Part shown: positions 11,430 through 29,697 of the stretch, piece by piece
How the letters are laid out: each line of letters begins with the position of its first letter
Position numbering within the stretch: position 1 is the first letter of the stretch
Assembly (NCBI GenBank): GCA_026984055.1
Contig: JALSSX010000281.1
Span: 1-32,705, forward strand
DNA: 32,705 nucleotides
Source of the DNA: Sedimenticola sp.
GTDB taxonomy: Bacteria > Pseudomonadota > Gammaproteobacteria > Chromatiales > Chromatiaceae
Direction of reading: 5' to 3'
Translations under genes and position numbers: made by a program
Notes under the pieces: model-generated
Databases searched by the model: none
What the model was told of the DNA's origin: nothing
Seen by the model: the letters and a program-made list of their open reading frames with translations, nothing else

Positions 11430-12224
11430 GTGTCGAATCAGACAGGCGATCGTAAAGCCCGCCGGGTATCAGCCGCTGACTGGGGTGTGAACAGTCAAGC
11501 CGCCAGGGGACTTCCATGTCGCTTATTCAAATGCTTTATCCAATGCTGTGCGAACTCATGCAAGCGTGGTTGCCGGCGCCTGCGCTCGGGGCTTGCCGGC
11601 CTGCTGCTGAGCACCTTGCCGCTGCCGGCCTTGTCCGGGTCTCCGGGGCTGCCGGCGAGTCTGTTTAGCTGGGTTCAAAATGCCTATGGCGCCGAGGCCC
11701 GGGATCGGGTCGAGGCGTGGTCCCGATTGCTTGCGCGCGCAGCCAGTCTGCCGGAACGGCGTCAGCTCGAAGCGGTCAACGATTTTTTCAATCGGGTGCC
11801 ATATCTTTCCGACAGCCAGACCTGGGGGCGCGAGGACTACTGGGCGACGCCGGTCGAGATGCTCGCCGAGGATGCCGCCGATTGCGAGGACTACGCGATC
11901 GCAAAATACTATACCCTGCGCCAGTTGGGGGTTGCCGAGGACAAGCTGCGCATCGCTTACGTCAAGGCGTTGAATCTGGATCAGGCGCATATGGTGCTGA
12001 CCTATTATCCGACGCCGGAAGCGGTACCCTTGGTGTTGGATAATCTCCAGAGGCGCATCGAACGCGCTACCGAGCGTACCGATCTGAAACCGGTATACAG
12101 CTTCAATGGCGATGGGTTGTGGTTGGCGGTGAGTCGCGCCGAGGGCCGGCGGGTAGGCGACGCCACGCGCATCAAACTATGGCAGAATCTATTGACTAAG
12201 CTGGGCCTGGAGATGGCCCGCTGA
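11430..12224 (+). CDS. lapG: LapG-like transglutaminase-like cysteine periplasmic protease (BTLCP family); exact start uncertain
   Basis: [37 protein letters not shown]...AHMVLTYY: Cys-His-Asp motif of BTLCP. Directly upstream of a LapD-like gene. Confidence 0.88.
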
Positions 12225-12241
12225 TTATCGAGAATCCCTTC

Positions 12242-14194
12242 ATGAGTTTGTCCCGACAACTGGTCGTCCTGATCGTTCTGCTGCTGCTGTTGGCGTTTGC
12301 CGGCAGTTTTTGGATCGCCTTGGGCAATACCCGAGACTATGTGCAGCAACAGTCCGCCTCGCACGCGCGTGATACCGCCAGGGCGCTGGGGCTGGCGGCG
12401 AGTACCGCGTTGCGCGACGAGGACCGGGCGACCCTGATTGCGATGGCTCGTGCGTTGTTCGACAGCGGCTACTACGAAGCGCTGCGCATATTGAAGGCAG
12501 ATGGTGAGGCGCTCGTGGACCTGCGCCAGCCGGGTGATCCGGATGTGCCGGAATGGTTTCGCCATCTGTGGCCGCTGACACCGGCTGAGCAGGCCGCGTC
12601 GGTGATGGCTGGCTGGCGGCAGGCGGGGCGGGTTGTCGTGCAGAGCCATCCGGGACTGGCGTATCGCCAGCTGTGGAACAATGCGCGGGATCTGTTGCTG
12701 TGGTTTTTGCTGCTTGCCGCGGTTGCGTTGGTGTTGGGTTTGTTGCTGCTGCGCGCGTTGCTGCGCCCGCTGCAATCGATCGAGGCGCGCGCGCTGGCGA
12801 TCAGCGAGCAGGATTTCGGTCATATCGAGGAGCGTCCGCGTAGCCGCGAGCTGGCGCGCATCGTCACCGCGATGAATCATGCCACCGATCGCATCCGGCG
12901 GATGCTCGCGGATAAGGATAAGCTGGTTGCCGCATTACGCGAGCAGGTCTATCAGCACCCGGTCACCCATCTGCCTAACCGGCGCTTCTTCATGAATCAC
13001 CTGGAGCGCGAACTGGATTCGCCGGAAACCGATGCATCCGGCGCTCTGCTGTTGATCCAGGTGGCTGGTTTCAAGGGCTATAACGATCGCAATGGCTACG
13101 CTAGGGGCGATGAACTGCTGCGGCGCGTGGCCGATGTGCTGACTCCCCTGGCCAGTGAGAAGATGCGGCTGGCCCATCTGAACGGCGGTGATTTCATCTT
13201 GCTGGCGGCGGGCTCGGGACGCGATCAGAGCCTGCAACTCGCGAAGCGGCTGCGTGATGCCGTCGGTGTGGAATTGATCGATACGTTGCTGGATTGTCAT
13301 ATCGGCATCGCTTTCTATCAATGTCCCGAACTTGGGCAAGCGCTGCTGGCGCGTGCTGACACGGCCTTGCGCAAGGCCGCCGGGGATATCGAATGTATCG
13401 GCGTGTCGGAGGATATTGCCGTTGAAATGCTCGATGGCTACACCGTCGCGGCCTGGCGCGAGGAACTGCGGCATGCGGTCGATGACCAGCGGGTTCTGTT
13501 CGCACTGCAGCCGGTAAAGCCAGCGCGGGAAACGGCAGCGGCGCGAGAGGTACTGCACCTTGAGGCACTGATGCGGCTGCGCCTTCGCGCGGATGATAGC
13601 ATTGTCACGGCCGGTCGGTTTCTGCCGGTCGCGGAACGCTTTGGCCTGGCAGATGGTTTGGATGTGGCCCTGCTGGGAGCGGTGCTGGCCTGGCTCCGGG
13701 AACAAAAGGTGGGAGCGCGCCGCCGAATTGCCGTGAATCTGTCGGCGCAAAGCCTGGCGAAGGAATCCGAGGCTGGTGCGATTGCCACGTTGCTCGAAGC
13801 ATACGCCGATCTCTGCGGCGATTTTCTGTCGCTGGAGGTCAGCGAACGATTGGTCACCCGCATGCCCGGTCATATCGTAATATTGCGTGATCTGGCCGAC
13901 CGATTCGGCGTGGAACTCGGCGTGGATCACGTCGGCACCGGGTTCGATTCCTTCGCCTATATCAATGCGCTCAGGCCAGCCTACATGAAGATAGATGGCA
14001 GCTTTGTGCGTGATGTCGAGTCCAATCCCGACAATCAATTCTACATCCGCGCGTTGGGTGATATCTGTCGAGGGCTTGGCAGCCTGGTGGTGGCCGAATG
14101 CGTCGAGTCCGAGGAGGTGATGAGTCAGTTGACTGCGTTCGGAGTGGATGCGTTGCAAGGCTATCAGGTGGGAAAGCCGACGCTTGTGGTATGA
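12242..14194 (+). CDS. lapD: LapD-like c-di-GMP receptor (LapD/MoxY N-terminal, HAMP, degenerate GGDEF, EAL)
   Basis: N-terminal MSLSRQLVVLIVLLLLLAFAGSFWIALGNTRDYVQQQ and LFDSGYYEALRI periplasmic module. GGDEF motif degenerate (HLNGGDFILL); EAL domain LEALMRLR. Confidence 0.9.
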   Translation: MSLSRQLVVLIVLLLLLAFAGSFWIALGNTRDYVQQQSASHARDTARALGLAASTALRDEDRATLIAMARALFDSGYYEALRILKADGEALVDLRQPGDPDVPEWFRHLWPLTPAEQAASVMAGWRQAGRVVVQSHPGLAYRQLWNNARDLLLWFLLLAAVALVLGLLLLRALLRPLQSIEARALAISEQDFGHIEERPRSRELARIVTAMNHATDRIRRMLADKDKLVAALREQVYQHPVTHLPNRRFFMNHLERELDSPETDASGALLLIQVAGFKGYNDRNGYARGDELLRRVADVLTPLASEKMRLAHLNGGDFILLAAGSGRDQSLQLAKRLRDAVGVELIDTLLDCHIGIAFYQCPELGQALLARADTALRKAAGDIECIGVSEDIAVEMLDGYTVAAWREELRHAVDDQRVLFALQPVKPARETAAAREVLHLEALMRLRLRADDSIVTAGRFLPVAERFGLADGLDVALLGAVLAWLREQKVGARRRIAVNLSAQSLAKESEAGAIATLLEAYADLCGDFLSLEVSERLVTRMPGHIVILRDLADRFGVELGVDHVGTGFDSFAYINALRPAYMKIDGSFVRDVESNPDNQFYIRALGDICRGLGSLVVAECVESEEVMSQLTAFGVDALQGYQVGKPTLVV

Positions 14195-14226
14195 CTGTCA
14201 AGATATTTTACAGCGGCCTGACAGTC
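14193..14226. promoter_or_regulatory. Dyad element TGTCAAGATATTTTACAG within GACTGTCA...TGACAGTC inverted repeat
   Basis: Read directly. The TGTCAnnATATTTTACAG ... CGGCCTG pattern recurs at 26699-26727 upstream of the PEP-CTERM gene. Confidence 0.55.
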
Positions 14227-14323
14227 TGAGTAGCGGTGATATTCGACGTTGGAACCACAAGGGCTTTATAAGTCTTTGTTTATCGCGTATTATTGAAATG
14301 CGTTGGAGTTTCTTGTTTTAGCT

Positions 14324-14339
14324 TGGCGCGATTATTGCA
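14324..14339 (+). promoter_or_regulatory. Candidate sigma-54 promoter TGGCGCG-ATTA-TTGCA
   Basis: One mismatch to TGGCACG-N4-TTGCW, with correct GG-N10-GC spacing; about 100 nt upstream of the start at 14443. Confidence 0.65.
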
Positions 14340-14442
14340 TTTGTTTCTTGGGTTTCCGCTGCCTGTTTTCCCCAATATTCGATGGTGTCGGCGGTATTTC
14401 GGGTGCGGTTTTTACGCAAGATGAATTTTCGAGGTGATGGTA

Positions 14443-14847
14443 ATGTTAAGGAGAATCTACTCACTGATGTTGGGTGGGATGTTGCTGGTGGCGGGCAGCG
14501 CCAATGCGGGCATCGCGGACGATCTGATGGCTTTGGTAAACAGTGGCAAGACCCTCGCCGATGCGGTGGCGCAGCTGGTTGCGGCGGATCCGGCCAAGGC
14601 CGGTGATATCGTTTCCGTTGCCGCGGATCTCGTCTATCGCCTCTCACCGGAGCAGTGTGCCCTGGATGAGCGGAACAAACCGCTGCGTGATTGCGGCGAT
14701 GGCATCGTGGCCTCGGCAATTGCCGCGGGCGGTGATCCGGGCGACGTGACGGAAGCCGCGGCCGCAGGCCTGGCTTCCGCCGGTGGCGGCGGAGGGATTG
14801 CCGGGGGAAGCAGTGGCGGTGGCGGATTGACTGCCAGCGGGGGGTGA
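14443..14847 (+). CDS. Small secreted protein with Gly-rich C-terminal tail, EPS locus-associated
   Basis: MLRRIYSLMLGGMLLVAGSANAG signal peptide; ends SAGGGGGIAGGSSGGGGLTASGG; SD GAGGTG 6 nt upstream of ATG 14443. Confidence 0.75.
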   Translation: MLRRIYSLMLGGMLLVAGSANAGIADDLMALVNSGKTLADAVAQLVAADPAKAGDIVSVAADLVYRLSPEQCALDERNKPLRDCGDGIVASAIAAGGDPGDVTEAAAAGLASAGGGGGIAGGSSGGGGLTASGG

Positions 14848-15401
14848 TGGTATCAGTATGACCGGTTGCGACAATGCAATATACACGAAGCAGGCTCTGG
14901 CAGCCGGATTTCTCCTGACATTGAAGTGACGCAACGAGCAATACGAGCCGTTCCCTGACGAATCGTGCCGAGGCATGGCGATTTTTGGGGTTCGAATCGC
15001 TTGTCGGGAGGCATGTTTGTTATTCCATGGCATGCGGCGCGACGTGATTCTTCATTGGGGTAATATACCGGGGTGATCCGATGTGCCGTCCGCCTTGCGG
15101 TTTGACCCCAAGCCATTTTGCTACCGAAGCACTTTTGCGTGATCGGCATCTTTAAACCTAATTGAGTATTGTTTTGTAACTATTCAACGAGTCGTTCGCG
15201 GGCAAAGTCACTGTTCGGATTGCTTTGAAAACCATCAAGCCATCAATCGAGGCAATAAATGCCCGGGTCACGGATGGTATATGGATCATTTTGGGGGGGC
15301 AATTGTCGAGGATTTGCAAGGGTAAGCGGGCATTATTGAACGCAGAGATGGCGTATTTTTGACTGGTTGCATTGATTTTTACGTTTTGACTTTAGCGATT
15401 G

Positions 15402-16622
15402 ATGGAGCGGGGCATGTGGGTACGGCAGCAGTTTTTGGAATGGGCGATACTGGTGATGTTGTTATCCTGCTTGGGTGTGAGCCAGGCGGAAACCTATGCG
15501 GACACCTATGCTCGCGAAAGCGGTGGCGGTCGCCCGGTACCAGGCTTTTACGGTAGCATCGAGGGTAATCTGGTCTCCGATGAGAATATTCGTCGCACCG
15601 ATTCCGACGAACAGTTCTCCCTGGTACCCATGATAAAGCCAGATATGAGTTGGGTGGCCGTGGAGCGTAAACACGTCTTTCGTCTTGGTTATCAGGGTAC
15701 CTATGCGCGTTTTCTGTCCAATCACTTCGAGGATTTTGACGATACCACGCTCTATGGCGATGCCTTTCTGAGTCATTCGAAGCGATTGCGCACGGCGTTT
15801 GGCGCGGCGTTTCGCCGTGGTCATGATGAGCGCGGGGCCTCGGGTATCATCGATATCTTCCAACGGCCAAATATCTGGAATCAGTGGTCTTTCCAGGCCG
15901 AGGGCCTGTATGGCCGGAAGATCGCCAAGGCGCAGGCCGGCCTACGTTGGGAGGCCGACCGCCGGCGCTACCTGAACAACAACCAGGATTTCCGGGATTA
16001 CAACGATTGGCGCCTGACCGGGTTGTTCGTGTACAACCTGGGGTCGAAAACTCAGTTGTTCTTCGAGCCTAGCTATGAAAAGCGTAATTATCTAAGCTCT
16101 TTCGACAGTGTGGCCCCCGATCTGGATAACAGCACGATGCGTTATTTGCTTGGCATCTCCTGGGAACTGACGGCCAAGACCACAGGGGTGTTCAAGGCGG
16201 GTTATTACAACCGTGACTATGATGGTGATGTGTACGAGGACGGCGATGGTCTGGCGGTGTCGGCGGATATCACTTGGCAGCCAAAGACCTACAGCAAGGT
16301 CAACTTGGTGTTGTCGCGGGATATCAACGATGCGACTCAGACGGTGGCGACCAACTATGTCTCGACGCTGGCGAAACTTTCATGGGAACACCAGTTGCCA
16401 CGTTTCAAGACCCTGGAACTCGGGGTCAGTTACCAGAACGATGACTATAATGTATTGCGTGAAGATGATATCTATAACGTTAATATTGGTTTCAGCCAGT
16501 CATTGAGTCGTCGTCTTTCCGTTGGTATCCGGTATGACTACGATAACCGCGACTCGAATCTCATCGGTAACAATTACAGGGACAACCGCATCACCCTGGG
16601 CGTGAGGTATGTGTTCCGCTAG
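15402..16622 (+). CDS. Outer-membrane beta-barrel protein of exopolysaccharide/PEP-CTERM loci (EpsL-like); start 15402 or 15414
   Basis: Signal sequence (LEWAILVMLLSCLGVSQAE), alternating-strand repeats, C-terminal ...NNYRDNRITLGVRYVFR ending in an aromatic-x pattern. Confidence 0.78.
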   Translation: MERGMWVRQQFLEWAILVMLLSCLGVSQAETYADTYARESGGGRPVPGFYGSIEGNLVSDENIRRTDSDEQFSLVPMIKPDMSWVAVERKHVFRLGYQGTYARFLSNHFEDFDDTTLYGDAFLSHSKRLRTAFGAAFRRGHDERGASGIIDIFQRPNIWNQWSFQAEGLYGRKIAKAQAGLRWEADRRRYLNNNQDFRDYNDWRLTGLFVYNLGSKTQLFFEPSYEKRNYLSSFDSVAPDLDNSTMRYLLGISWELTAKTTGVFKAGYYNRDYDGDVYEDGDGLAVSADITWQPKTYSKVNLVLSRDINDATQTVATNYVSTLAKLSWEHQLPRFKTLELGVSYQNDDYNVLREDDIYNVNIGFSQSLSRRLSVGIRYDYDNRDSNLIGNNYRDNRITLGVRYVFR

Positions 16623-17008: not shown

Positions 17009-17548
17009 ATGTGGTGTGACAGTGTGCTGACGAGGATCCTCGTTCTCTGGGTGATGGTAATGCTATCTCCGCTGGTTTCCGCTGGGGAGCGAAGCTACCG
17101 AATCGATTCGGAAGACGTTTTGTCGGTAACTGTGTTCGACGAGCCGGAGTTGAGTGTCGAGGAGTTGAGAGTTTCCGCGGATGGCACGATATCCATGCCG
17201 CTGCTTGGCGCGATCAAGGTCAAGTCGCTGACCACGGATCAGGTCGAAAAGAAGATCGCCCGACTCCTTGCCGATGGTTATCTGAAGAATCCGCGCGTCA
17301 ATGTCTCCGTTGTCGAATACCGTTTCGTCTATGTCAATGGCGCGGTCAAGACGCCGGGTGGCTATAACTATCAGGATGGGCTCACCGTCCAGAGGGCTAT
17401 CGTGTTGGCTGGCGGACTGGACGAACGCGCCTCGGAAGACAAGATCACGATCACTCACGAGGGTGACGAGGATCACCCAGTACGCGTGGACATGAATGAT
17501 CCGGTGCGTCCAGGTGACGTGATTTCCGTGGGAGAAAGTTTCTTCTGA
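17009..17548 (+). CDS. Polysaccharide export protein (Wza/EpsE-like, SLBB domain)
   Basis: YRIDSEDVLSVTVFDEPELSVEELRVSADGTISMPLLGAIKVKSLTTDQVEKKIARLLADGYLKNPRVNVSVVEYRFVYVNGAVKTPGGYNYQDGLTVQRAIVLAGG. Confidence 0.93.
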   Translation: MWCDSVLTRILVLWVMVMLSPLVSAGERSYRIDSEDVLSVTVFDEPELSVEELRVSADGTISMPLLGAIKVKSLTTDQVEKKIARLLADGYLKNPRVNVSVVEYRFVYVNGAVKTPGGYNYQDGLTVQRAIVLAGGLDERASEDKITITHEGDEDHPVRVDMNDPVRPGDVISVGESFF

Positions 17549-17928: not shown

Positions 17929-20160
17929 TTGAGTACATTGCCCGAATCTCCCCCATCGGTCGTTCCTCCTCGCTTGCTTGGCGGTGTCGCCGAAAGCCTC
18001 GATATCCGTCGCTATATTCGAATACTCCGACAGTATAAATGGAGCATCCTCGGTATCGCGCTGTTGCTGGCCGCGTTGGCCGCGCTGATCTCGTTCTGGA
18101 TGACGCCCAGCTATCGGGCGCAGGTCGATCTGTTGGCTGATCCGTCTCAAACCGGCGTCGCCGATGATTCGAAGCGCGTCAGTAGCGCAATGGTCTGGCT
18201 GTTCTACGAGACGCAGAAAGACATCCTCGACAGTCGGCGTGTCGCGCTTTCGGTCGTGGACAGGTTGCACTTGGTCGAGCGTTACCAGCAAGAGCAGCGG
18301 AAGAAAAGCGCGCGTTCCTTCGATCTGTTGAAGCAGTGGTTCGATATCGACTGGAGGCTGTGGATGCCCGAGACCTGGCGCGACAAGCTCGAGCAGGGGG
18401 GGGGGCGGGTCGAACCGCGATTGATGCTTGCCGATCGCCTGCGCAAGGCGCTGCGCATCGAAACGCGGAAGAACAGCCAGATCATTTCGGTCATTTATCC
18501 GAACAAGGATTCGGCATTGGCGGCTGATGTCGCGAACGCGGTTGCCGATGCCTATATCGAATTCGGTTTGGCATCACGCTTGGAGACAGTTGCTCAGCAA
18601 AGTGCTTGGTTGAATGAACAACTGGCTGGATTGAAACAGAAGCTACGTGAATCTGAATTGGCCCTGCAAAAATTTCAGCAGGAACAGGGTTTGATTGGCT
18701 CGAAAAATCAGGAGGATCTGATATCCACTGAGTTGAGCAGTCTGTCGGTGGAGCTGGTCCGGGCTCAGGCTAAACGGGGCGAGGCAGAAGTGCGCTATCG
18801 TCAAGTACAGAAGATCAAGAAGCAGGGTGGCGACTACAATACGCTGGCCAGCGTGCTGCACAGCCCGCTGATCACTCGCTTGAAGGACAAGCAATCGGAG
18901 CTGTATCGCAAGGTTTCGGAGCTATCCAGTCGCTACGGGAAGAAGCACCCGAAGATGATTGCGGCGAAATCGGATCTGAAGGAGGCCACGCGCGTGTTGA
19001 ACAATGCGATCAACAAGGTCGTTGGGGGCTTGAGGCAGGAATACGAGATCGCCCGGGCCAAGGAACGGCGTATTCGCGGCTTGATGTCCGCGAGGAAACG
19101 CGCGATCCGTAATCTGAAGGGCAAGGGCTTCGAACTCGGTCAGTACGAACGCGAGGTCGAGAACAATCGCCTGGTCTATGAGAGCTTTCTCTCCAAATTC
19201 AAGGAGATGGACGTTACCGGTAACTATGATGGCTCGAATATCAAGATCGTCGATCGAGCCATCGCGCCAAGCAAGCCGTATAGCCCGAAGCGCATGCAGA
19301 TCACGCTCGGCGCCTTTATCGTCGGTTTATTGCTCGGCACCATCATCGTGTTTCTGCGTGATCGTCTCGATAGTCGTTTTACCTTGCTCGAACAGGTGGA
19401 GAGCAACCTGAACCTGCCGGGACTGGGTGTTGTTCCCAGTGTTCGCATGCGTCGCAAGGATCCCGACGTGGCGGTTTGGTACCGGGCAAACGCGGGGTCG
19501 CCCTTTGCCGAGGCGATCAATCACATCCGTACCGGCATTTTGTTTTCTGATATCGATTCACCTCCGAAAGCCATCATGGTGACCTCGGCGCTGCCTGGAG
19601 AAGGTAAGACGACGTTGGCAAACAATCTGGCGCTGGCTTTCGCCCAGCTGGGTCGCACGGTGTTGCTCGAATGTGATCTTCGGCGTCCCCGCGCCCGGGA
19701 TATCTATGAACTGGATAGTGATTCAGGGTTGACGGACTTGGTGCAGGATCCCGGGCTGAGGGATGTCTGTATCCATAAACCCTTCGAGGATCAGGATTTC
19801 TATGTGCTCCCCGCCGGAGAAAAGGTTCCGAATCCCCTGGAGTTGTTGTCTTCCGATACCTTTTCCCGGGTGTTGCGGGAACTCCGAGAGGAATATGAGC
19901 ATGTCATCCTCGACGCGCCGCCGGTGCTGCCTGTCAGTGATGGGGTCGTGCTGGGCCACCGGGCCGATGGCGTCGTGGTCGCGATTCGCTCGCGGGATAC
20001 GACGGAAAAGGCCGCCCGGGATGCACTGCGTCGGTTGCGAGCCGCGCGTATCGAGCCGTTGGGCGCGGTGCTCACCCAGGCGCATGCAAAGAAGATGGCC
20101 TATTATGGCAGCCAGTATTACGCCGATTACTCTTACTATGGTGATAAGGCTTATCGTTGA
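17929..20160 (+). CDS. Wzz-domain polysaccharide chain-length / BY-kinase (Wzc/EpsF-EpsG-like tyrosine kinase)
   Basis: Two TM segments, long coiled coil, Walker A SALPGEGKTTLANNLALAFAQLG, ECDLRRPR, Tyr-rich tail YYGSQYYADYSYYGDKAYR. Start TTG 17929. Confidence 0.93.
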   Translation: MSTLPESPPSVVPPRLLGGVAESLDIRRYIRILRQYKWSILGIALLLAALAALISFWMTPSYRAQVDLLADPSQTGVADDSKRVSSAMVWLFYETQKDILDSRRVALSVVDRLHLVERYQQEQRKKSARSFDLLKQWFDIDWRLWMPETWRDKLEQGGGRVEPRLMLADRLRKALRIETRKNSQIISVIYPNKDSALAADVANAVADAYIEFGLASRLETVAQQSAWLNEQLAGLKQKLRESELALQKFQQEQGLIGSKNQEDLISTELSSLSVELVRAQAKRGEAEVRYRQVQKIKKQGGDYNTLASVLHSPLITRLKDKQSELYRKVSELSSRYGKKHPKMIAAKSDLKEATRVLNNAINKVVGGLRQEYEIARAKERRIRGLMSARKRAIRNLKGKGFELGQYEREVENNRLVYESFLSKFKEMDVTGNYDGSNIKIVDRAIAPSKPYSPKRMQITLGAFIVGLLLGTIIVFLRDRLDSRFTLLEQVESNLNLPGLGVVPSVRMRRKDPDVAVWYRANAGSPFAEAINHIRTGILFSDIDSPPKAIMVTSALPGEGKTTLANNLALAFAQLGRTVLLECDLRRPRARDIYELDSDSGLTDLVQDPGLRDVCIHKPFEDQDFYVLPAGEKVPNPLELLSSDTFSRVLRELREEYEHVILDAPPVLPVSDGVVLGHRADGVVVAIRSRDTTEKAARDALRRLRAARIEPLGAVLTQAHAKKMAYYGSQYYADYSYYGDKAYR

Positions 20161-20621
20161 CGGGCGTTATGTATGGGGAGAGCGGCTGTGTGAAAGGGTG
20201 GTTCGGCAAGTCTCGGCTCTGTTTGATCGTCGTTTGGCTGCTGCTTCGTTTGCAATGGCGACGGCACGAGACCTTGCCACGTTTACTCGATCGAGTCGTG
20301 TTATGGCGAGGCATTCCGGTATGTGTCGGTACCGCCGAGGCGGTGGATGCGGTAGCCTGCGTATTTCATCATGCCCGGCGGATTCCCGGTCTGTGGGTGA
20401 GTTGTATTCCGCGCGGAGTGGTTCTCGCGGCGTTACTCAGAGATAGCCCGGGCACCTGCCTGAAAATTGGCTTTTCCCCGATAACCGGGCATCGACAAGG
20501 CCATGCTTGGTTGAGTCGCGAAGGCGAGCCGTTGATGCCCGAAGACAGCGAGCTGTTGGCTAGGCATCGCTACGCCGCGGTTACATCCTTGCCATTACGG
20601 CTTCACCGGAGAATACATTGA
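20157..20621 (+). CDS. Lasso peptide biosynthesis B2-like transglutaminase-family protease
   Basis: C-terminal motif SCIPRGVVLAALLRDSPGTCLKIGFSP...GHAWLSREGEPL matches the Cys-His arrangement of B2 proteins (Transglut_core3). TTG start overlaps the BY-kinase stop (TTGA); ATG at 20169 is an alternative. Confidence 0.82.
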   Translation: MTGVMYGESGCVKGWFGKSRLCLIVVWLLLRLQWRRHETLPRLLDRVVLWRGIPVCVGTAEAVDAVACVFHHARRIPGLWVSCIPRGVVLAALLRDSPGTCLKIGFSPITGHRQGHAWLSREGEPLMPEDSELLARHRYAAVTSLPLRLHRRIH

Positions 20622-20902
20622 ACGATATTCCCGCGACGCTATTCGGCTTTTCCCGGCGTCTTCGAGACGGTGATCTGTGCCTTACCGAGCTGGGTGACGG
20701 TAGTGGTGTGATATTGGATTTGGACGGTCATCAGGTATTGACCTTGAACGGTAGTGGCGTTGTGCTCGTCGATGCGATTGCCGCCGGGACGCTGGCGATC
20801 GACGACTTGGCGAAGATACTTCGCGAACGCTTCGATGTGGAGGAAATGGTTGCGGAGCGCGATGTACAGGCGTTTCTGGAGGAGCTGGGTGGCTATGTGT
20901 AG
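20618..20902 (+). CDS. PqqD-family protein (lasso B1/RRE-like precursor-recognition protein)
   Basis: LRDGDLCLTELGDGSGVILDLDGHQVLTLNGSGVVLVDAIAAGTLAIDDLAKILRERFDVEEMVAERDVQAFLEEL is PqqD-like. TTG start overlaps the B2 stop (TTGA), with GGAG 6 nt upstream. Confidence 0.85.
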   Translation: MNDIPATLFGFSRRLRDGDLCLTELGDGSGVILDLDGHQVLTLNGSGVVLVDAIAAGTLAIDDLAKILRERFDVEEMVAERDVQAFLEELGGYV

Positions 20903-20945
20903 TCGCCGCTACCCGCGCAAGGGGACTCTGCTCCGGCCCGCCTGT

Positions 20946-21263
20946 CTACAGCAGCGCTCGGAAGAAGGGCGTCCATGCGAGTGCGACCAGCAATGCGGCG
21001 GTAAGACTCAGGTACATATGCTGGCGATGCGGATTTGCGGTCCCTGCCTGTAGCGCATCCACCGCGAATACCTTGCTCATCAGTGCATCCAGCAGTAAAA
21101 CGAAGAATAGCAATACGGCGAGAGCCGGGGCGATGTACGAGACGGTCGTCAGCCAATTGGTTTCGGCATTACTGTCCGCGATAAAGGCGAGTGGCGTAAT
21201 CGCCAGCGCCAGCAGATAGAGGCAGAAGCGGGCCGGGCCGAGAGATTTGATCGTGGATAGCAT
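20946..21263 (-). CDS. Small hypothetical membrane protein
   Basis: MLSTIKSLGPARFCLYLLALAITPLAFIADSNAETNWLTTVSYIAPALAVLLFFVLLLDALMSKVF...; three hydrophobic segments. Confidence 0.65.
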   Translation of the reverse strand: MLSTIKSLGPARFCLYLLALAITPLAFIADSNAETNWLTTVSYIAPALAVLLFFVLLLDALMSKVFAVDALQAGTANPHRQHMYLSLTAALLVALAWTPFFRALL

Positions 21264-21480
21264 GGCGGGATAACGAGGATAAGGAATTGCTGCTATTATC
21301 CCGGCGGTTGAAGCGGGAGGCAATGATTTAATGGCCACGGCCAGTCGAGCTTCGAATTTCAGCGTGCGGGCGAGCATTCCGATGTTTGCTTGTCTGTGGC
21401 TATTATATATTTCCCCGGAGTCCGTCTTTTCCTTCAGCGGCCGGCTACTTGTCAAGTCCAATTTGGAGACTTCATCCCCC

Positions 21481-22293
21481 ATGCGAATCGTATCCTTCAA
21501 TACCAACGGTATTCGTGCGCGTGAACATCAATTGGAACGCCTGCGCGATGAACTGAGCCCAGATGTGATTGGGATCCAGGAAACCAAGGTCCACGATGAC
21601 ATGTTCCCGCTGGATATGATGAAAAGGCTCGGATATCACGCTGAATATTTCGGCCAGAAGGGCCACTACGGCGTGGCTCTACTGTCGCTCCAGCCGCCGG
21701 AGCGGGTCATCAAGGGGCTGCCGGGGGAGGACGAGGCCGATCAGCGCCGCATGATCAGCGCAACCTACACCTTCTCTGGGCAACCGGTAAGTGTGATGAA
21801 CGGTTATTTTCCGCAGGGCGAAAGCCGTGATCATCCAGAAAAATTTCCGAACAAGCAGCGTTTTTATCAGAACCTGCTGGATACCTTGCGCGCCGATCAT
21901 GACCCCGGCGAGAACCTAGTCGTTCTCGGCGATATGAATGTGGCCCCCCTGGATCGGGATATCGGTATCGGGCCAGACAATGCGAAACGCTGGTTGCGCA
22001 GCGGCAAATGCAGCTTTCTCCCGGAAGAGCGGGAATGGTTGCAACGTCTGATGGACTGGGGACTGCAAGACACCTTTAGGGTTTGTCATCCGGATGCCGA
22101 CGATCGTTTCAGTTGGTTCGATTACCGCAGCAAGGGTTTCGATCGCGAGCCGAAACGCGGTTTGCGCATCGACTTGATCATGGCGACCGAGCCGCTGATC
22201 CGGAAACTGAACGGCGCGGGCATTTCGTATGAGATCAGGGGGATGGAAAAGCCTTCCGATCACGCGCCGATTTGGGCGGATTTCGATCTCTGA
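21481..22293 (+). CDS. xth: Exodeoxyribonuclease III
   Basis: [21 protein letters not shown]...[16 protein letters not shown]...[13 protein letters not shown]...[11 protein letters not shown]...[10 protein letters not shown]. Confidence 0.94.
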
Positions 22294-22303
22294 GCGATAG
22301 CCG

Positions 22304-23626
22304 TCAAGCCGGCGCGGGATTCCCAGCCGGGCCGGAAACCGCCGGGTGGGCCTCGATGAAATTGCCACAGGAACTGATTCGCGAGAGTTCCACCTCGATG
22401 ATCTGGTTGGCCCGCTCCAGACCGAGTTCAGTGATGGCGACGCGTAGAAAATTGGGCGTATAACCGCTGACGGCGTAGCTTTTCCCTTCCGCCCTCAGTG
22501 AAGCGGCTTCGACCAAGACCGGCAACCGTTCGCCGATGTGGTGCCGCTGGATATTGCGTTTCATTCCTGCAGCCAGCGCGTGCAGCGCTTCGCTGCGTTC
22601 CCGTTTTAGCGTTCGTGGGAGTTGTTCTGGCAGCATCGCTGCTTTTGTGCCACCACGCGGGGAATAGCTGAAGATATGGATATGGCCGAAGCCGGTGGTC
22701 TTGATGAAATCCAGGGATTCCTGCCAGTCGGCTTCGCTTTCACCAGGGAAGCCAACGATGATGTCGGTAGTAATGTTGAGTCGTGGCACCGTCTGCCGGG
22801 CATGCTCGACGAGAGCGCTGAATTCGGCGGTTTTGCAGCGTCGCGCCATGCGTCGCAATGTGCGGTCGCAACCGCTTTGGAGTGGCAGATGCAGGTGCGG
22901 CATCAGGCGCGGGTTGTCGAACAATGTCCAGAAGTTCTCTGGTATGTCCCAGGGTTCCAGCGAGCCCAAGCGGATGCGTGGCATGCCGGTTTCAGCCAAT
23001 ACCCGGGCGATCAACCGGCCGATGTCGCTGTCCGTGTCGGCGCCGTAACCGCCAAGATGCACGCCTGTCATCACGATCTCGCGGACACCTTCGTCGTGAA
23101 GTTGGTTGATCTCCGAGATAATTTCACCCAATGGACGGCTGCGTTCCTCGCCGCGCGCGACGGTGACGATGCAGAATGTGCAACGATAGCGGCAGCCATC
23201 CTGAACCTTGACGAATGCGCGCTGCCGCCCCGCCGGCAACAGTGGTGCGTGGCTGTCGTCGATGTGCGTGGCCGGCATCGTGGGCACGGACAGGGATTCA
23301 CTCACCAGTTCCGCGAGGCGGTGCTTGTCTCGGTTTTCCACCAGCAGATCGACACCGAGATCCGCTGCGGCGGCGTCGGCGTTCAATGTGGCATAGCAGC
23401 CACTCAGCACCAGTTTCGCTTGTGGATTGCCACGTTGCGCGCGGCGCACCAGCTTGCGGGATTTACGCACTGCCTCTTCGGTAACCGCGCAGCTGTTGAT
23501 CACGATCAGATCCGCCTCTTCGACCTGATCGGTATCGTGATGACCCAGGGCGAGAAAATCGCGGCGCCAAGTCTCGGTTTCGGCCTCGTTCAGTCGGCAG
23601 CCCAGGGTTTTGAAGTGGATACGCAT
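22304..23626 (-). CDS. mtaB: tRNA (t6A37) methylthiotransferase MtaB-like radical SAM protein
   Basis: MRIHFKTLGCRLNEAETE, VINSCAVTEEAVRKSRK, VQDGCRYRCTFCIVTVARGEERS (CxxxCxxC), LPLQSGCDRTLRRMAR. Confidence 0.94.
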   Translation of the reverse strand: MRIHFKTLGCRLNEAETETWRRDFLALGHHDTDQVEEADLIVINSCAVTEEAVRKSRKLVRRAQRGNPQAKLVLSGCYATLNADAAAADLGVDLLVENRDKHRLAELVSESLSVPTMPATHIDDSHAPLLPAGRQRAFVKVQDGCRYRCTFCIVTVARGEERSRPLGEIISEINQLHDEGVREIVMTGVHLGGYGADTDSDIGRLIARVLAETGMPRIRLGSLEPWDIPENFWTLFDNPRLMPHLHLPLQSGCDRTLRRMARRCKTAEFSALVEHARQTVPRLNITTDIIVGFPGESEADWQESLDFIKTTGFGHIHIFSYSPRGGTKAAMLPEQLPRTLKRERSEALHALAAGMKRNIQRHHIGERLPVLVEAASLRAEGKSYAVSGYTPNFLRVAITELGLERANQIIEVELSRISSCGNFIEAHPAVSGPAGNPAPA

Positions 23627-24056
23627 GATATAGTCACGGGAAGATGTGGCGCGCTGAAGGGTAGCCCGGGTTGCGAGTCAGTGGAATACTATGCTGCCGG
23701 TGTAGTCACGGTCAGCCAAGCGTTGGAATTATCGCACGTTCCTTTCGCCCCGGGCCGTGTTGCTCGTCGTTTATTTGGAATGGCCAAAGGTCACGCCTCG
23801 CGCCTTGATTTGCGCTTTTTCAGGGGCAACAGAGTCCATTGCTTTCGTGTTAACAGTCCCTCGAAGCCTGCCGGGTTTAGGATGATTCTACTGCGGCGGT
23901 GGGAAATTGGTCCATTTTCCGATCTTTTTCGTTGCGTAGCCCCACTATGCACCTCAAAAGACCGAAAAATTGTCCTCGATTTCTCACTCGCCTTGTTACG
24001 AACCCTTAACAGGCTCCTAGGTTTGCCGCGGCGACGCAGCAAGGTGATGATACCAA

Positions 24057-25592
24057 ATGACTGATTTGAATGCGTTGTCTCACGATCCCGCTTTGTTGCT
24101 GCTGGTCATCGCCAGCCTCTTTTTGTTGCTGTTGGTGCTGCTGTTGATCGCCGTCGCCGATTTGCGTCGTCAGCAGGCGGTCATGGCTGAGCGCATGGCG
24201 AGAGATATGGCCGAGATGCTCGAAGCGCAGTTCACCGGCATGGAATTTCTACGCACCCAGCAGGCGGAATCCGAACGCCGCCAGAGCAACTTGATTGTCA
24301 CCTCGGCGGCAAATGCCCAGCGCGATCTCGACGGAGTGAAGGATAGCCTGATGTTTCAATTTGCTGAACTGTCTTCCGCGCAGCAGCGAGATATCTCGCG
24401 CGCCGCCCGCGATACCGGCGAGGCGCTCATTACCCTGCGCGAGCATCTGGGCGAACGCTTTTCCACGTTGGAGCAGGGGGTGAAAGCCGGACATGCGGAG
24501 ATGTCCGCGCAGCAAGTGTTGCGCGCAAATCAATTGGAAGCGGTTGTGCAGGGACTGTTCGCGGAGAACAAGACGGCGTTGGAAAAGCGTCATGCCGATG
24601 TACTCACGATTCAGCAGGAAGTGCTATCGCGGCAATTGGCCGCCGTCGCAGCGAGTATCGAAGCCAGCCTGGGGCGTCAGAATGAGACCATCGAGCGGCA
24701 CATCGATGGCTTGACGAAAACCACGGATGCCCGCTTGCGGGCCATCAGTGAGCAGGTGGAGCAACGGCTGGACAAGGGTTTCGAGAAGACGACCCGGGTG
24801 TTTTCCGAGGTATTGGAACACCTGAACCGAATCGATGAAGCGCAGAAGAAGATCACCGAGTTGTCGGCTAGCGTCGTCAGCCTACAGGAGGTATTGTCGG
24901 ACAAACGCTCGCGTGGGGCGTTCGGCGAGGTGCAACTCAGCGGTCTGGTCGCCAATCTGATGCCGGAAAAGGCCTTCAGCCTGCAACACACGTTGAGCAA
25001 CAAGATGCGTGTCGACTGTCTGCTGTTTCTTCCCGATCCTACCGGGAATGTTGCCATCGATGCCAAGTTTCCATTGGAGAGCTATCAGAGGATGCTCGAT
25101 GATCGTGCCTCGGATATCGATCGAGCTGCCGCGCGGCGTCAATTTCGCCTGGATATCCGCAAGCACATCGAGGCCATCTCCGGAAAATACATCATTCCGG
25201 GTGAAACCGCGGATGGCGCGGTGATGTTCATCCCTGCCGAGGCGGTATTCGCCGAGATTCACGCGCACTTTCCCGAGATCGTCAACGAGGCCCAACGACG
25301 CCGCGTGTGGCTGGCGTCGCCGACAACGATGATGGCGATCCTGACCACCGCGAGAGCGGTATTGAAGGACGAAGCCACGCGAGAGCAGGTGCATATCATC
25401 CAGGCGCATCTGAATGCCTTGTCTGGGGATTTCTCCCGCTTTAAGAAACGTATGGATACTCTCGCCAGGCACATCCGCCAAGCGAACAAGGATGTCGACG
25501 AGGTCAGCACCTCGGCGCGGAAAATCAGCGATCGATTCGAAAAAATCGAGTTGGTCGAGTTGGATGAGCGGCCTTCCTTGAGTGAAAAGTAA
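24057..25592 (+). CDS. rmuC: DNA recombination protein RmuC
   Basis: Long coiled coil, then SDKRSRGAFGEVQLSGLVANLMPEKAF...DCLLFLPDPTGNVAIDAKFPLESYQRML...LASPTTMMAILTTARAVLKDE. Confidence 0.96.
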   Translation: MTDLNALSHDPALLLLVIASLFLLLLVLLLIAVADLRRQQAVMAERMARDMAEMLEAQFTGMEFLRTQQAESERRQSNLIVTSAANAQRDLDGVKDSLMFQFAELSSAQQRDISRAARDTGEALITLREHLGERFSTLEQGVKAGHAEMSAQQVLRANQLEAVVQGLFAENKTALEKRHADVLTIQQEVLSRQLAAVAASIEASLGRQNETIERHIDGLTKTTDARLRAISEQVEQRLDKGFEKTTRVFSEVLEHLNRIDEAQKKITELSASVVSLQEVLSDKRSRGAFGEVQLSGLVANLMPEKAFSLQHTLSNKMRVDCLLFLPDPTGNVAIDAKFPLESYQRMLDDRASDIDRAAARRQFRLDIRKHIEAISGKYIIPGETADGAVMFIPAEAVFAEIHAHFPEIVNEAQRRRVWLASPTTMMAILTTARAVLKDEATREQVHIIQAHLNALSGDFSRFKKRMDTLARHIRQANKDVDEVSTSARKISDRFEKIELVELDERPSLSEK

Positions 25593-25610
25593 GGTGAGTG
25601 GGAGGCGACC

Positions 25611-26600
25611 ATCCTGACCCTGAGTCTTGCGGATGTCGATCTGCGGGTCGATGTCGACGGCTTGTCGCTAGCCGCCTTGGAGGCGCGCTACGCGTTTCTG
25701 CGGCCACGCGTCCATGCGGCGTCACCCAAGGAATCATGGCCCTGCATCCATGTGCGACCGTCGTTGCCGATAGAGCTACGGGATGCCCTGAAGGTGCTTC
25801 GATGCAATGACGAAATCCCGTGTGCGCGGGGAGGAGATAGGCGAGTTTATTTTCCTGATGGCTGTCACGTCTATGATGTCTCGAAAACCACGTCCGAAGT
25901 GATGCAGCCTCATTCTGAGGCGGGGGCGGCCGTGAACGCCGCCATCGTGCGCGCGTTCGCGCTGTGTGGAGGAATCATCGTGCATGGCCTGGCTTTCGAG
26001 CATGGCGACAAGGGCTATTTGGCGCTGGGAGACAGCGGTTCGGGGAAGTCCACCCTGGCGACCGCGATCCTACTTGCCGGTGGCCGGATCGTCAGTGACG
26101 ATCTGGTGCTGTTGGGAAGAGCGTCCGATGGCGGGGTTCGGGTATTACCCTTTCGTGCCGACATGGTGTTGCGCGATCCGAGCTATCGGCGATTTCGCGC
26201 GAGATTGGAACTGAACGGCATGGAGTTGGATGAGTTGCGCGTGAATGGCGAACGAAAGTGGAGAATCTCGCGAGATCGGCATCCGGAGTGTTTTGTCCGA
26301 GCGGTATCGGTTGCCGCTGTTTTGTGCCTTGCTTCTCCCGACGGGGAAGGCAATTGCGTGCTCAGCCTCATTACTCAGGCCGAGGGTTACGCGGCGATCG
26401 CACGGGACAACTATTTCTTCAACAGCCCTCATCCTTTGGAGCAACGCGCGATGAGCCAGACTCTCGGCGCTTTGCTGACCACGGTTCCGGTGCTGAAGGT
26501 CGCATCCTCCAGGCGATTGTTCTTGAGGCCGGTCGAGGAGGTCGATGGCTTGCTTCGGCGCATTGAAAAACATGCGTGTCAGCATCATTTACATCTGTGA
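25611..26600 (+). CDS. HPr kinase/HprK-related serine kinase-like protein (lasso/RiPP locus kinase candidate); start uncertain
   Basis: P-loop YLALGDSGSGKSTLATAILLAGGRIVSDDLVLL. Frame open from 25593. GGGAGG (25600-25605) precedes ATC 25611/CTG 25614; the tool start is TTG 25662. Confidence 0.82.
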   Translation: MLTLSLADVDLRVDVDGLSLAALEARYAFLRPRVHAASPKESWPCIHVRPSLPIELRDALKVLRCNDEIPCARGGDRRVYFPDGCHVYDVSKTTSEVMQPHSEAGAAVNAAIVRAFALCGGIIVHGLAFEHGDKGYLALGDSGSGKSTLATAILLAGGRIVSDDLVLLGRASDGGVRVLPFRADMVLRDPSYRRFRARLELNGMELDELRVNGERKWRISRDRHPECFVRAVSVAAVLCLASPDGEGNCVLSLITQAEGYAAIARDNYFFNSPHPLEQRAMSQTLGALLTTVPVLKVASSRRLFLRPVEEVDGLLRRIEKHACQHHLHL

Positions 26601-26698
26601 TCCGGTTCTCGTTGTGCAATTTAACTTTTATTTAACAGTGGGTTGCTTGCATCCTGTTTATGTTTTTCTTTAATGTGCCACATGGTTTGGCGTGTGGG

Positions 26699-26716
26699 TG
26701 TCAGTATATTTTACAG
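26699..26716. promoter_or_regulatory. Dyad element TGTCAGTATATTTTACAG upstream of the PEP-CTERM gene
   Basis: Same TGTCAnnATATTTTACAG word as at 14196-14213, again followed by CGGCCTG. Confidence 0.55.
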
Positions 26717-26831
26717 AGTGCCGGCCTGCCCCAGAGCATCAATGGTAAAAACTATTAAATTCAATTTCTTACTGGTGATGGCATGAAATATGTATATCAG
26801 TAATGACACTGTTTTTCTGGGCATTACCTCC

Positions 26832-27518
26832 ATGAATTTTTTAAAAATTATCGTTATCGGCGCCTTGCTTGGCGCCTCTTCGGTCCACGCCGCACTGATT
26901 GACAACGGGGCGCCGGATGCCCAAAGCGGCGTCACGATTGCGAATGCGAAGACCGGCGCGGACGATTTCGTGCTGTCACGCCTAGAGAACACCTTGCTGG
27001 GTGGAAGCTTCTGGACTTTGGAATCAGATCCGACGAGCTGGGATGGAACTCTGGAGATACGCTTTTATGACGATGCCGGCGGAAACCCGGGTAATGGTAC
27101 TCCTACTCCGGTGCAAACGGTGATGCTGCACTCGGCGGATATCAGCCGCACGCAGACTGCGGCGGGTATTTCCCTGGGACTGTTTACCGGTCTGGTCGAA
27201 TATCGGAATGTTTTCACCTTTACGACACCGGTGGACTTGATCGGCGGCCACTACTGGATGGCGTTGTATATGCAGGGTGACCTGAACAACAACAATCCGG
27301 AGATATTCTGGGAGACCACCGGTTCTCAACATTATTTTGCTGCTGCGCAGTCCAGCCGCGCGGTGCCCCCGTTGGCGTGGAACAATGTATACCACCCTTC
27401 GGGTCCCACCGATCTGGCTTTCACCTTGAGTTTCGATATTCCGGAGCCGGTGCCTGCTGTATTGATGTTGGCGGGTGTGGCGGCTATGATGGCTGGAAGA
27501 AGGAAAAAGGCTGCGTAA
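26832..27518 (+). CDS. PEP-CTERM sorting domain-containing protein
   Basis: Signal peptide MNFLKIIVIGALLGASSVHA; C-terminus FDIPEPVPAVLMLAGVAAMMAGRRKKAA (PEP, TM helix, basic tail). ATG 26832 preferred over 26790. Confidence 0.9.
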   Translation: MNFLKIIVIGALLGASSVHAALIDNGAPDAQSGVTIANAKTGADDFVLSRLENTLLGGSFWTLESDPTSWDGTLEIRFYDDAGGNPGNGTPTPVQTVMLHSADISRTQTAAGISLGLFTGLVEYRNVFTFTTPVDLIGGHYWMALYMQGDLNNNNPEIFWETTGSQHYFAAAQSSRAVPPLAWNNVYHPSGPTDLAFTLSFDIPEPVPAVLMLAGVAAMMAGRRKKAA

Positions 27519-27583
27519 CAGCGCCTTTACCAGACTATACCCGATCGACTTTACTATCGGGTGGGATGATTGTTGAGTTTGTA

Positions 27584-27748
27584 ATGATGAAGCAAGAGAT
27601 GCGCACTATCAGTGAGACGAGCCGCCAGGACGAGAAGCGCCTATATGAACCACCGAGCGTCGAACGTCAGCGTTTGGACGCAGTGGTCAAGGCGGGTGGT
27701 AATGGCTCCGTCGACAGCCCTTTTGGTACAAAGAATGAAATTCCCTGA
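27584..27748 (+). CDS. Putative lasso-type RiPP precursor peptide (54 aa)
   Basis: MMKQEMRTISETSRQDEKRLYEPPSVERQRLDAVVKA|GGNGSVDSPFGTKNEIP. YxxP leader motif, Gly at the expected core position, Asp at core position 7; close to kinase and cyclase genes. Confidence 0.72.
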   Translation: MMKQEMRTISETSRQDEKRLYEPPSVERQRLDAVVKAGGNGSVDSPFGTKNEIP

Positions 27749-27771
27749 TGGATCGTCTCGTTCGAAACGTG

Positions 27772-27803
27772 AAAAGGCTCCTCCTTGTTGAGGGGCCTTT
27801 TTT
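27772..27803. terminator. Rho-independent terminator between convergent precursor and cyclase genes
   Basis: AAAAGGCTCCTC-cttgtt-GAGGGGCCTTTTTT hairpin with U-tract (A-tract on the opposite strand, so possibly bidirectional). Confidence 0.8.
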
Positions 27804-27870
27804 CATGCGTCGGGAATACTCTATCTGGTAAGGTGCTTATCATGAGGGGAGGATGAACGAGGCGTGCGAT

Positions 27871-29697
27871 TCATCCCGATTCGCCGCGTAAGGCCTCCAG
27901 GAATATCTCGGTTGTGACGAGATTGGACAGTTCGGCTGGGAGTTGTGAGCCAAGGGGTCGCGTCAGCTGAGTCGTCAGCCAGGAGGGGTTTACGATGCCG
28001 ATTTCGCTCAGAAGCCAGTACCGCGCGGCGGGGACCATCCCTAGCAGTCCGGTATCGTTTACCCCGGGGATATTGAAGTTGGGTTTGCTCGGGTAAGAAA
28101 GCACAGCCTCCGGCAGTCGATTCCGCATGGCTCGGCGTAGCAGGGCCTTGGGTTCGTTATCGGGGTAGACGAGCAAGTCGGGTGGGGTGCGAAAGCCGAA
28201 TTCGATCAGACTACGATGCATCAGTGGATGACGGATATCCAGTTGGTGCCCGGCCGCGAACTGTTGATTGGGCGCCATGCCATAGGTAGCGAACCAATTC
28301 AGTGCGCTGAGTAGACGACTGCGTCGAACCCCATTTTCCAGGCACGACTGTTCCTTCAATGCGAGCATGTCACGATACAGCTCATGCCAAGCAGGGTGTA
28401 GCCATGCGGGCGGCCTGCGGAGCTGGTTGTAGAGGCGTCGCGGCCACGAACCTTCCCGGGCCAGCGTCAGTTTGAAGGCGCGGCGCAGATTCGCGCCTGG
28501 GTTGCGTCGGCGGGTCCATTGGTTTCCTTTCCAGGCGGCCATGAGTGCCTCGATTCGCCTGCCGGAGCTCCAAGCATCTCCGAGATGGAACTGGCTGGGT
28601 TCGAACCATTCATCACCGCCGATGCCCAGCAGCAAGGTTCCGCGGCCCTGTTCGTGGACGAAGCGATAGAAGGGTTCGTAATAGTAAGCGTTTGGGGCCA
28701 CGATATAATCCAGTCTTTCGGTGAGCGCCTGGATAAAGTCCGTATTGCGAAAAGTCGAGACATCCAGTTTCTTGACCGTTACCCCATGGAAGCCTTCATG
28801 CAGGTGGATGATCCGGCTTTCGTCACAGGTCTGTCCGGGAAAAATCTGACTGAAGGCGCTTGTGCTCGCGGCTCGCTGATCGCCCCGTGCGGCCAGATGG
28901 CGGATCGTGCCCCACAGACTGCCCGAGTCGAGACCGCCACTTAGGCTCAGGCCGGTATTCTCATCGGGAATCGCATGCTCTACCGCGTGGTCGAGCAGCA
29001 TGCGTAGTTCAGCGGCGCGTTCGGCTTGGTTTCGTTGGGAAGGGACGACTGTCTCGGTGTCTGGCGGTTGCCACAATGGCTGGACTACGGCCTGCTTCTT
29101 GCCGGGCGAGAAGCGATACAGTCGTCCGGGTAGGATGCGAGAAATACCCTGGTAATAGGTCTTACCCGGTTGTGACAAGGTTTGGTTGAACAACAGATAC
29201 TCGACCAGGGCGCCGTGATCGATGCTTGGAGTTTCGTCGTTCAGGAGATGAAGCTGGCGGATATCGGTCGCGATGACCAGGTTGGCGTGACCGTGACGGT
29301 AATGCAGCGCGCGGATGCCGTCGATCGAAGTGTAGACACTCGTTACGCCATCGGCGGCGCAGATGATGGTCGAGAACTCTCCATCCAACTGAGCCAGGGA
29401 TTCGGTGGGGACGCGAGACAGGAAGCGGCCCAGGCGTTCGGCGTCCGATTTGCCCTGGATGCTCGGGTCGATGTCGCGCCAGTTCGCGATATAGCCGTCG
29501 ACGGCGATAAGTCGCCCGCCCTGGCGGCAAAGACTGGTCTCGCCAGCCAAGTGTTGAATCGCCAGTACCCGCCTGTCGATTCGATGACTGAGCGTTTTGC
29601 CACGAAACGGCGTGGCCGCGCCCAGGCGTCGAATCTGTGCGCTCATCTTGGGAGAGGGAGCGTCGCTGGGGTAAGCGATAAAGGTAAGTGAACTCAC
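27871..29697 (-). CDS. Asparagine synthetase-like protein, probable lasso peptide cyclase (C protein)
   Basis: GTG start; degenerate N-terminal glutaminase-like domain without MCG; ATP-pyrophosphatase motif TGLSLSGGLDSGSLWG; AsnB-like C-terminal half (PLMHRSLIEFGFRTPPDLL...KALLRRAMRNRLPEAVL). Confidence 0.82.
   Translation of the reverse strand: MSSLTFIAYPSDAPSPKMSAQIRRLGAATPFRGKTLSHRIDRRVLAIQHLAGETSLCRQGGRLIAVDGYIANWRDIDPSIQGKSDAERLGRFLSRVPTESLAQLDGEFSTIICAADGVTSVYTSIDGIRALHYRHGHANLVIATDIRQLHLLNDETPSIDHGALVEYLLFNQTLSQPGKTYYQGISRILPGRLYRFSPGKKQAVVQPLWQPPDTETVVPSQRNQAERAAELRMLLDHAVEHAIPDENTGLSLSGGLDSGSLWGTIRHLAARGDQRAASTSAFSQIFPGQTCDESRIIHLHEGFHGVTVKKLDVSTFRNTDFIQALTERLDYIVAPNAYYYEPFYRFVHEQGRGTLLLGIGGDEWFEPSQFHLGDAWSSGRRIEALMAAWKGNQWTRRRNPGANLRRAFKLTLAREGSWPRRLYNQLRRPPAWLHPAWHELYRDMLALKEQSCLENGVRRSRLLSALNWFATYGMAPNQQFAAGHQLDIRHPLMHRSLIEFGFRTPPDLLVYPDNEPKALLRRAMRNRLPEAVLSYPSKPNFNIPGVNDTGLLGMVPAARYWLLSEIGIVNPSWLTTQLTRPLGSQLPAELSNLVTTEIFLEALRGESG

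Follow-up and report, generated by a model that had tools for sequence, protein, structure and literature searches.

Here we describe a kinase-type lasso peptide system in Sedimenticola sp., encoded within a single contig of 32,705 nucleotides (JALSSX010000281.1; contig C281 of the genome designated G000), the whole of which is referred to as the window. Judged by its gene content the system is real, and it is quite likely tied to a PEP-CTERM/exopolysaccharide (EPS) programme; the peptide may work in the matrix or at the envelope alongside a PEP-CTERM surface protein, the gene of which lies between those of its kinase and its precursor. An earlier note on this DNA had proposed a lasso-type ribosomally synthesized and posttranslationally modified peptide (RiPP) with a kinase, spread through an EPS/PEP-CTERM region, and the results presented here support this proposal, with the genes split across two sites.

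Lasso peptide genes and their order

The first block, wzc-B2-B1 at 17929-20902, begins with the gene of a wzc-type EPS chain-length/tyrosine autokinase (fused Wzc; 17929..20160, forward strand; TIGR01005, E 2e-86). To it are attached the B2 leader peptidase (20157..20621, forward strand; likely start 20169-20190) and B1, a PqqD-like RiPP recognition element (RRE; 20618..20902, forward strand) that overlaps the end of B2. The second block, K-PEP-A-C at 25662-29697, comprises the HprK-like kinase K (25662..26600, forward strand; start approximate), the PEP-CTERM gene, the precursor A and, on the reverse strand, the cyclase C. It lies 4.7 kb further on, and DUF, xth, mtaB and rmuC genes separate the two. 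Open reading frame (ORF) positions and family matches confirm the five lasso-type genes named in the earlier note, the start of K being refined to about 25662. The three separate blocks described there are actually two, K, A and C being contiguous save for the PEP-CTERM gene. The emphasis placed on dispersal is correct for B1 and B2, which do stand apart, but not for the rest, and G049, a genome from a different order, has its B1, C, A, K and PEP-CTERM genes in a compact cluster.

The order wzc-B2-B1 ... rmuC-K-PEP-A-C is kept in three Sedimenticola genomes, namely that of the window and two relatives of the same genus, G001 and G002. The equivalents lie on contigs C261 and C355 of G002 and on contigs C1, C238 and C233 of G001; C238 and C233 have PEP-A ends in common, and from these overlapping ends we infer that K-PEP-A-C is contiguous in G001 as well. 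Because the order is the same in three assemblies, the arrangement is neither due to chance nor an assembly fault, and the B2/B1 split as an assembly artefact is ruled out. Its conservation in the two other Sedimenticola genomes indicates that the layout is old and stable.

Window B2 matches lasso_biosyn_B2 (E 8e-6) and Transglut_core3 (E 6e-5), and its orthologues, which also sit after wzc, score above the cut-off of 33 (45.9 bits in G002, 37.2 bits in G001). Its Cys-His-Asp residues, C71, H104 and D118 in alignment numbering, are invariant in the three species. B1 matches PF05402 (E 1.3e-12), is 90% identical in G002 and 70% identical in G001, and has a ratio of nonsynonymous to synonymous rates (dN/dS) of 0.04. 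In G049, B2 is unlinked (contig C51), and it is therefore apart from the rest in both lineages. A fragment of a second B1-B2 pair was also observed in G002 (contig C328, locus L087), with a TGA stop inside the B2 match.

The P-loop and SDD of K are intact, and K carries all eight residues of the lasso-kinase motif, H108, G123, G126, G128, K129, S130, D146 and D147. At a constant offset of 40, these correspond to H148-G163-G166-G168-K169-S170-D186-D187 of BsfK, for which the motif was published (PMC10368454). The motif is only partial in the G049 kinase, in which GKS and DD are kept and the first glycines are not.

C (27871..29697, reverse strand) has an Asn-synthase fold (Asn_synthase, E 2e-27) and lacks the glutaminase Cys2. 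In a maximum likelihood tree of 33 sequences, a 100/100 branch separates MCG-type asparagine synthases, including E. coli AsnB, from the cyclases of lasso loci. The window cyclase clade, which includes G049 (97/96), falls on the lasso side, within which long branches leave its placement unsure. The identification of C as an asparagine synthase or XrtA amidotransferase is ruled out by the lack of Cys2 together with its grouping with lasso cyclases, a grouping on which the earlier note had made its own proposal depend. Similarly, a precursor ORF, the absence of which in relatives would have told against that proposal, stands beside the cyclase in every close relative found. Class-wide, cyclase-profile matches outside lasso loci are mostly MCG-type asparagine synthases, and a profile score alone is therefore no evidence of lasso function. 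A profile search of genome contigs with the cyclase alignment found nothing beyond the two Sedimenticola relatives already known and a single distant cluster, and a plasmid search with the window cyclase returned no match.

These genes could instead specify a non-lasso RiPP of the HPr-rel-A or LPP kind, phosphorylated and possibly unthreaded or linear, with C making some other amide. In the HPr-rel-A system (NCBIfam TIGR04352), an HprK-like kinase occurs with a PqqD-like protein. HprK_rel_A is indeed the best-scoring family for K, yet at only 29.5 bits, far under its cut-off of 200, and asn_synth gives C a slightly higher score than lass_lactam_cya does. LPP-type systems (HprK, NTP transferase and RRE) are found in polysaccharide loci, mostly without a lasso cyclase (PMC13381572). 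Against this reading, the locus encodes B2 and a lasso-type leader, and its cyclase lacks Cys2 and falls with the lasso cyclases in the tree; we consider a non-lasso product improbable.

The precursor A (27584..27748, forward strand) is a peptide of 54 amino acids, MMKQEMRTISETSRQDEKRLYEPPSVERQRLDAVVK / AGGNGSVDSPFGTKNEIP, recognized by invariant residues, selection and a profile match. Between the window and G002, codons 28-54, which span the latter half of the leader together with the core, show 13 synonymous and 0 nonsynonymous changes, and all 10.5 nonsynonymous changes fall in codons 1-27 (omega 0.12 overall). Such a pattern of change is that of a genuine gene in which the leader motif and the core are under selection. 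It also bears on the possibility of a decaying, scattered cluster that no longer has a product, which might be read from the split of B1/B2 from the rest and from the divergence of B2, the greatest of any member. With the core protein of A unchanged despite heavy synonymous change, dN/dS of 0.04-0.24 in all genes and active sites intact, such decay was already disfavoured and is hardly credible.

When stretches of the G049 contig were searched with a profile of the three Sedimenticola precursors, a frame located between C and K was the only significant match (E 3e-8) among 615 frames. Tyr21, Pro24, Val26, Val34, Val35 and Asp44 of A are invariant in the four species. A YxxPxL-type leader motif is thus present as Y21-x-x-P24-x-V26, with Val replacing Leu, and Asp44 occupies core position 8 (or 7), within the required range of 7-9 for Asp/Glu. 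The predicted core (27692..27745, forward strand) begins at Ala37, which puts Val35 at -2 and gives AGGNGSVDSPFGTKNEIP an Ala1-Asp8 ring; one codon later, with Gly38 as the first residue, Lys is at -2 and the ring would be Gly1-Asp7. In the Val(-2) register, the G049 core is GIGGSAVDTSNNIRIGI, with Gly1-Asp8, position 1 is a small residue in four of four precursors, and Tyr is at -16 rather than at the published -17. An independent precursor in locus L134 of genome G260, LVQ/GGGGFPLD, has V(-2) and Asp8 at matching spacing. Ile or Val replacing Thr at -2 is documented for phosphorylated lasso peptides (PMC10368454). The core may instead follow the alternative register, with Lys or Arg at -2 and a seven-residue ring.

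The probable PEP-CTERM partner and its promoter

The PEP-CTERM gene (26832..27518, forward strand), the start of which was set downstream of the sigma-54 site, lies between K and A and encodes a surface protein with the C terminus IPEPVPAVLMLAGVAAMMAGRRKKAA. A PEP motif, a hydrophobic stretch and RRKK are visible in this tail, which scores 13.9 bits to TIGR02595 (cut-off 16). An AlphaFold2 model of the protein had a mean predicted local distance difference test score of 44 and was not used.

For PEP-CTERM genes, Haft 2006 described a 17-nt motif ending in TTTACA, sometimes repeated, which is followed by a spacer of 62.8 nt on average and a sigma-54 motif, and PrsR is the predicted activator of these genes (PMC1569441). 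This motif 1, TGTCAG-N5-TTTACA, was found three times in the window, against 0.04 occurrences expected by chance (at most one mismatch). The first copy, TGTCAGCATCATTTACA (26577..26593, forward strand), overlaps the 3' end of K. The second, TGTCAGTATATTTTACA (26699..26715, forward strand), is a probable PrsR enhancer, and 63 nt after it stands a sigma-54 -24/-12-like element, TGGCATGAAATATGTA (26779..26794, forward strand). The sigma-54-like site follows motif 1 at the same 63-nt distance in each of the three Sedimenticola species, and it scores 9/11 in G002 and 10/11 in G001. The genome encodes PrsR (701 bits, cut-off 503) and an exosortase (contig C11; 251 bits, cut-off 105.55). In the other loci where it was found, on contig C209 of the same genome, contig C51 of G049 and in G015, exact motif 1 stands before PEP-CTERM-like genes. 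No forward terminator was predicted between PEP and A, and a weak intrinsic terminator-like stem follows A (27781..27795, forward strand), with a stronger one at the same place in G001. The terminator scans are weak support because the number of their matches is near chance level. PEP and A probably form one transcript of the PEP-CTERM regulon.

Similar promoters were observed elsewhere. On C209 (locus L037:3397-5496), a further HprK-like gene adjoins a PEP-CTERM-like gene, with a WecA-like gene beside them; this pair has its own motif 1 and sigma-54 site, and no PqqD or cyclase gene. At 14196-14847 of the window, and likewise in G002, motif 1 with one mismatch and a 10/11 sigma-54 site are followed by an ORF of 137 amino acids that heads the EPS block, has a Gly-rich tail and belongs to no known family.

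G049, which alone represents its order in the sample, carries its cluster in the order PqqD (reverse strand), C, A, K and PEP, within 5 kb. With profiles not trained on G049, it gives the best out-of-genus matches for C (4.6e-40, next 6e-17) and K (3e-16, next 3e-6), and the PEP protein encoded next to K scores higher (67 bits, next 44) than any other out-of-genus match found in the class sample. All three matches lie inside 4 kb of a single contig. Among 369 class genomes, strong forms of PEP, C and K were found only in G000 and G049; the profiles used in that search included G049, so that the untrained comparisons, which give the same answer, are the fair ones. The wider phylum sample held no further strong case of the PEP-CTERM gene, and the remaining PEP matches, in G100, G153, G154, G231 and G335, are distant, and none of them adjoins K, A or B2. 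A cyclase-profile match 8 kb from the PEP match of G154 was rejected, as it falls among asparagine synthases in the tree. The PEP-CTERM gene of the window looks like a member of the cluster, not a bystander.

Alternatively, the cluster could encode an ordinary kinase-type lasso peptide, antimicrobial or a signal, for which the PEP-CTERM neighbour and the regulon promoter are incidental. No PEP-CTERM gene lies near other K-bearing lasso clusters (L056, L129, L130, L138 and Paracoccus), and PEP-CTERM genes are common in genomes of such kind. However, in the G049 cluster the gene adjoining K encodes a homologue of this PEP-CTERM protein, and the adjacency of PEP and A, with a terminator-like stem behind, is kept across the genus. 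We regard an incidental association as unlikely, although it deserves to be borne in mind.

In the EPS block ahead of the lasso genes are EpsL-like (15399-16622) and Wza-like (17009-17548) genes. Just upstream of the EPS genes, at 11430-14194, the window encodes a LapG-like BTLCP peptidase and a LapD-like GGDEF/EAL protein of cyclic di-GMP adhesin control. As the earlier note had stated, no dedicated ATP-binding cassette (ABC) exporter is present in the window. An MsbA-like ABC gene sits elsewhere in the genome in a second, canonical lasso cluster (contig C306, locus L017:2903-7508), with B1, B2, a cyclase and an adjacent WecG-like glycosyltransferase gene; no precursor was recognized in this second cluster.

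Proposed pathway and relation to known systems

In the pathway we favour, PrsK/PrsR and RpoN would turn on the PEP-CTERM regulon, and a single transcript would yield the PEP-CTERM surface protein and A. The YxxPxV leader would be held by B1 (20618-20902), a Ser or Thr of the core phosphorylated by K, the leader removed by B2 through cleavage after Val(-2)-Lys(-1), and the Ala1-Asp8 isopeptide ring of a presumably threaded peptide closed by C. The only Ser or Thr residues of AGGNGSVDSPFGTKNEIP are Ser6, Ser9 and Thr13. Once exported, the peptide would work with the PEP-CTERM protein in the matrix or at the envelope. Such a role is our best guess; the regulon promoter of PEP-A and the PEP-CTERM homologue in the G049 cluster point, by regulation and by position, to the envelope or biofilm function suggested in the earlier note.

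Several observations weigh against this explanation. The sigma-54 site scores just 8/11 in the window, no exosortase was found in the 99% complete genome of G001, and the G049 cluster lacks motif 1 at up to two mismatches. Window B2 falls just below both curated cut-offs, and the PEP-CTERM link rests on two lineages. Furthermore, the core lacks both known phosphate acceptors, the C-terminal Ser found in paeninodin and the Ser3 found in BsfA, and for this reason we do not file the peptide under either subtype. It is rather unlikely that the lasso peptide is itself a functional component of the PEP-CTERM/EPS matrix, binding or being covalently attached, perhaps through its phosphate, to the PEP-CTERM protein or the polysaccharide; if true, the peptide would have a structural or cargo function of a kind not known among lasso peptides.

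Among known systems, bsf of Bradymonas sediminis (BsfA/B1/B2/C/K), as described in the available part of PMC10368454, has the same eight-residue kinase motif, separate B1 and B2 and, compared with A in the favoured register, a small residue 1, an Asp8 ring and a non-Thr residue (Ile/Val) at -2. It differs in its phospho-Ser3 and in Tyr at -17, here at -16 if Val is -2, and that part of the source reports no PEP-CTERM gene. Paeninodin and pseudomycoidin (PadeK, PsmK/PsmN; PMC9266682) and their relatives in Bacilli capsule loci (PMC13381572) likewise combine an HprK-like kinase and a lasso set in polysaccharide loci. They differ in their C-terminal Ser phosphate acceptor and Gram-positive capsule loci, and the available parts of both sources describe no PEP-CTERM partner or PrsR/RpoN signature. 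Motif 1, spacer length, the sigma-54 element, PrsR, exosortase and EPS genes are shared with the proteobacterial PEP-CTERM/EpsH regulon (PMC1569441) and the RpoN-dependent pepA of Aquincola (PMC9850573). Most PEP-CTERM genes of that regulon are single-gene operons (PMC1569441), whereas the predicted unit in the window continues into a lasso precursor gene. A plasmid cluster of Paracoccus sp. MC1862 (NZ_CP067230) also has PqqD, B2, cyclase and serine kinase genes, flanked by sugar transferase, O-antigen ligase and GNVR-domain genes, but it is compact, has its own ABC exporter and, over the stretch examined, contains no PEP-CTERM gene.

Individual cases of lasso genes adjacent to polysaccharide genes were also observed on C306 of the same genome, in G162 (EpsL-Wza-Wzc-CpsB), G112, G176 and SZAS-69 and on the Paracoccus plasmid. 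In the metagenome-assembled genome SZAS-69 (L056:4616-16085), a lasso cluster between EPS genes has 3 cyclases, 2 HprK-like kinases and about 3 precursor-like ORFs. In G162 (contig C1, L131), the EPS genes adjoin an ABC gene and lasso B2, with a lasso cyclase 7 kb off; here too, a lasso set is spread through an EPS locus. An NTP_transf_5 nucleotidyltransferase gene stands beside the lasso PqqD of G049 (L016:5174-6406). In the case of pseudomycoidin, the annotated nucleotidyltransferase PsmN has been connected with hexose on the phosphorylated peptide (PMC9266682).

In the open-licence literature searched, we found no partnership of a lasso peptide with a PEP-CTERM protein. We regard this system as a variant of kinase-type lasso systems, distinguished by its PEP-CTERM partner, its regulon promoter and its separately located B1/B2, and its novelty is provisional. 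According to PMC13381572, the biological role of kinase-type lasso peptides is unknown, as is the function of those associated with capsule loci in Bacilli, for which a biofilm role was called tempting but untested. Here the precursor is tied to a named surface protein, positionally in two lineages and through the promoter in a single genus. The regulator and sigma factor implicated are of the kind by which a flocculation protein is controlled in Aquincola (PMC9850573). The locus thereby makes it directly testable whether peptides of this little-understood class serve in the matrix or at the envelope.

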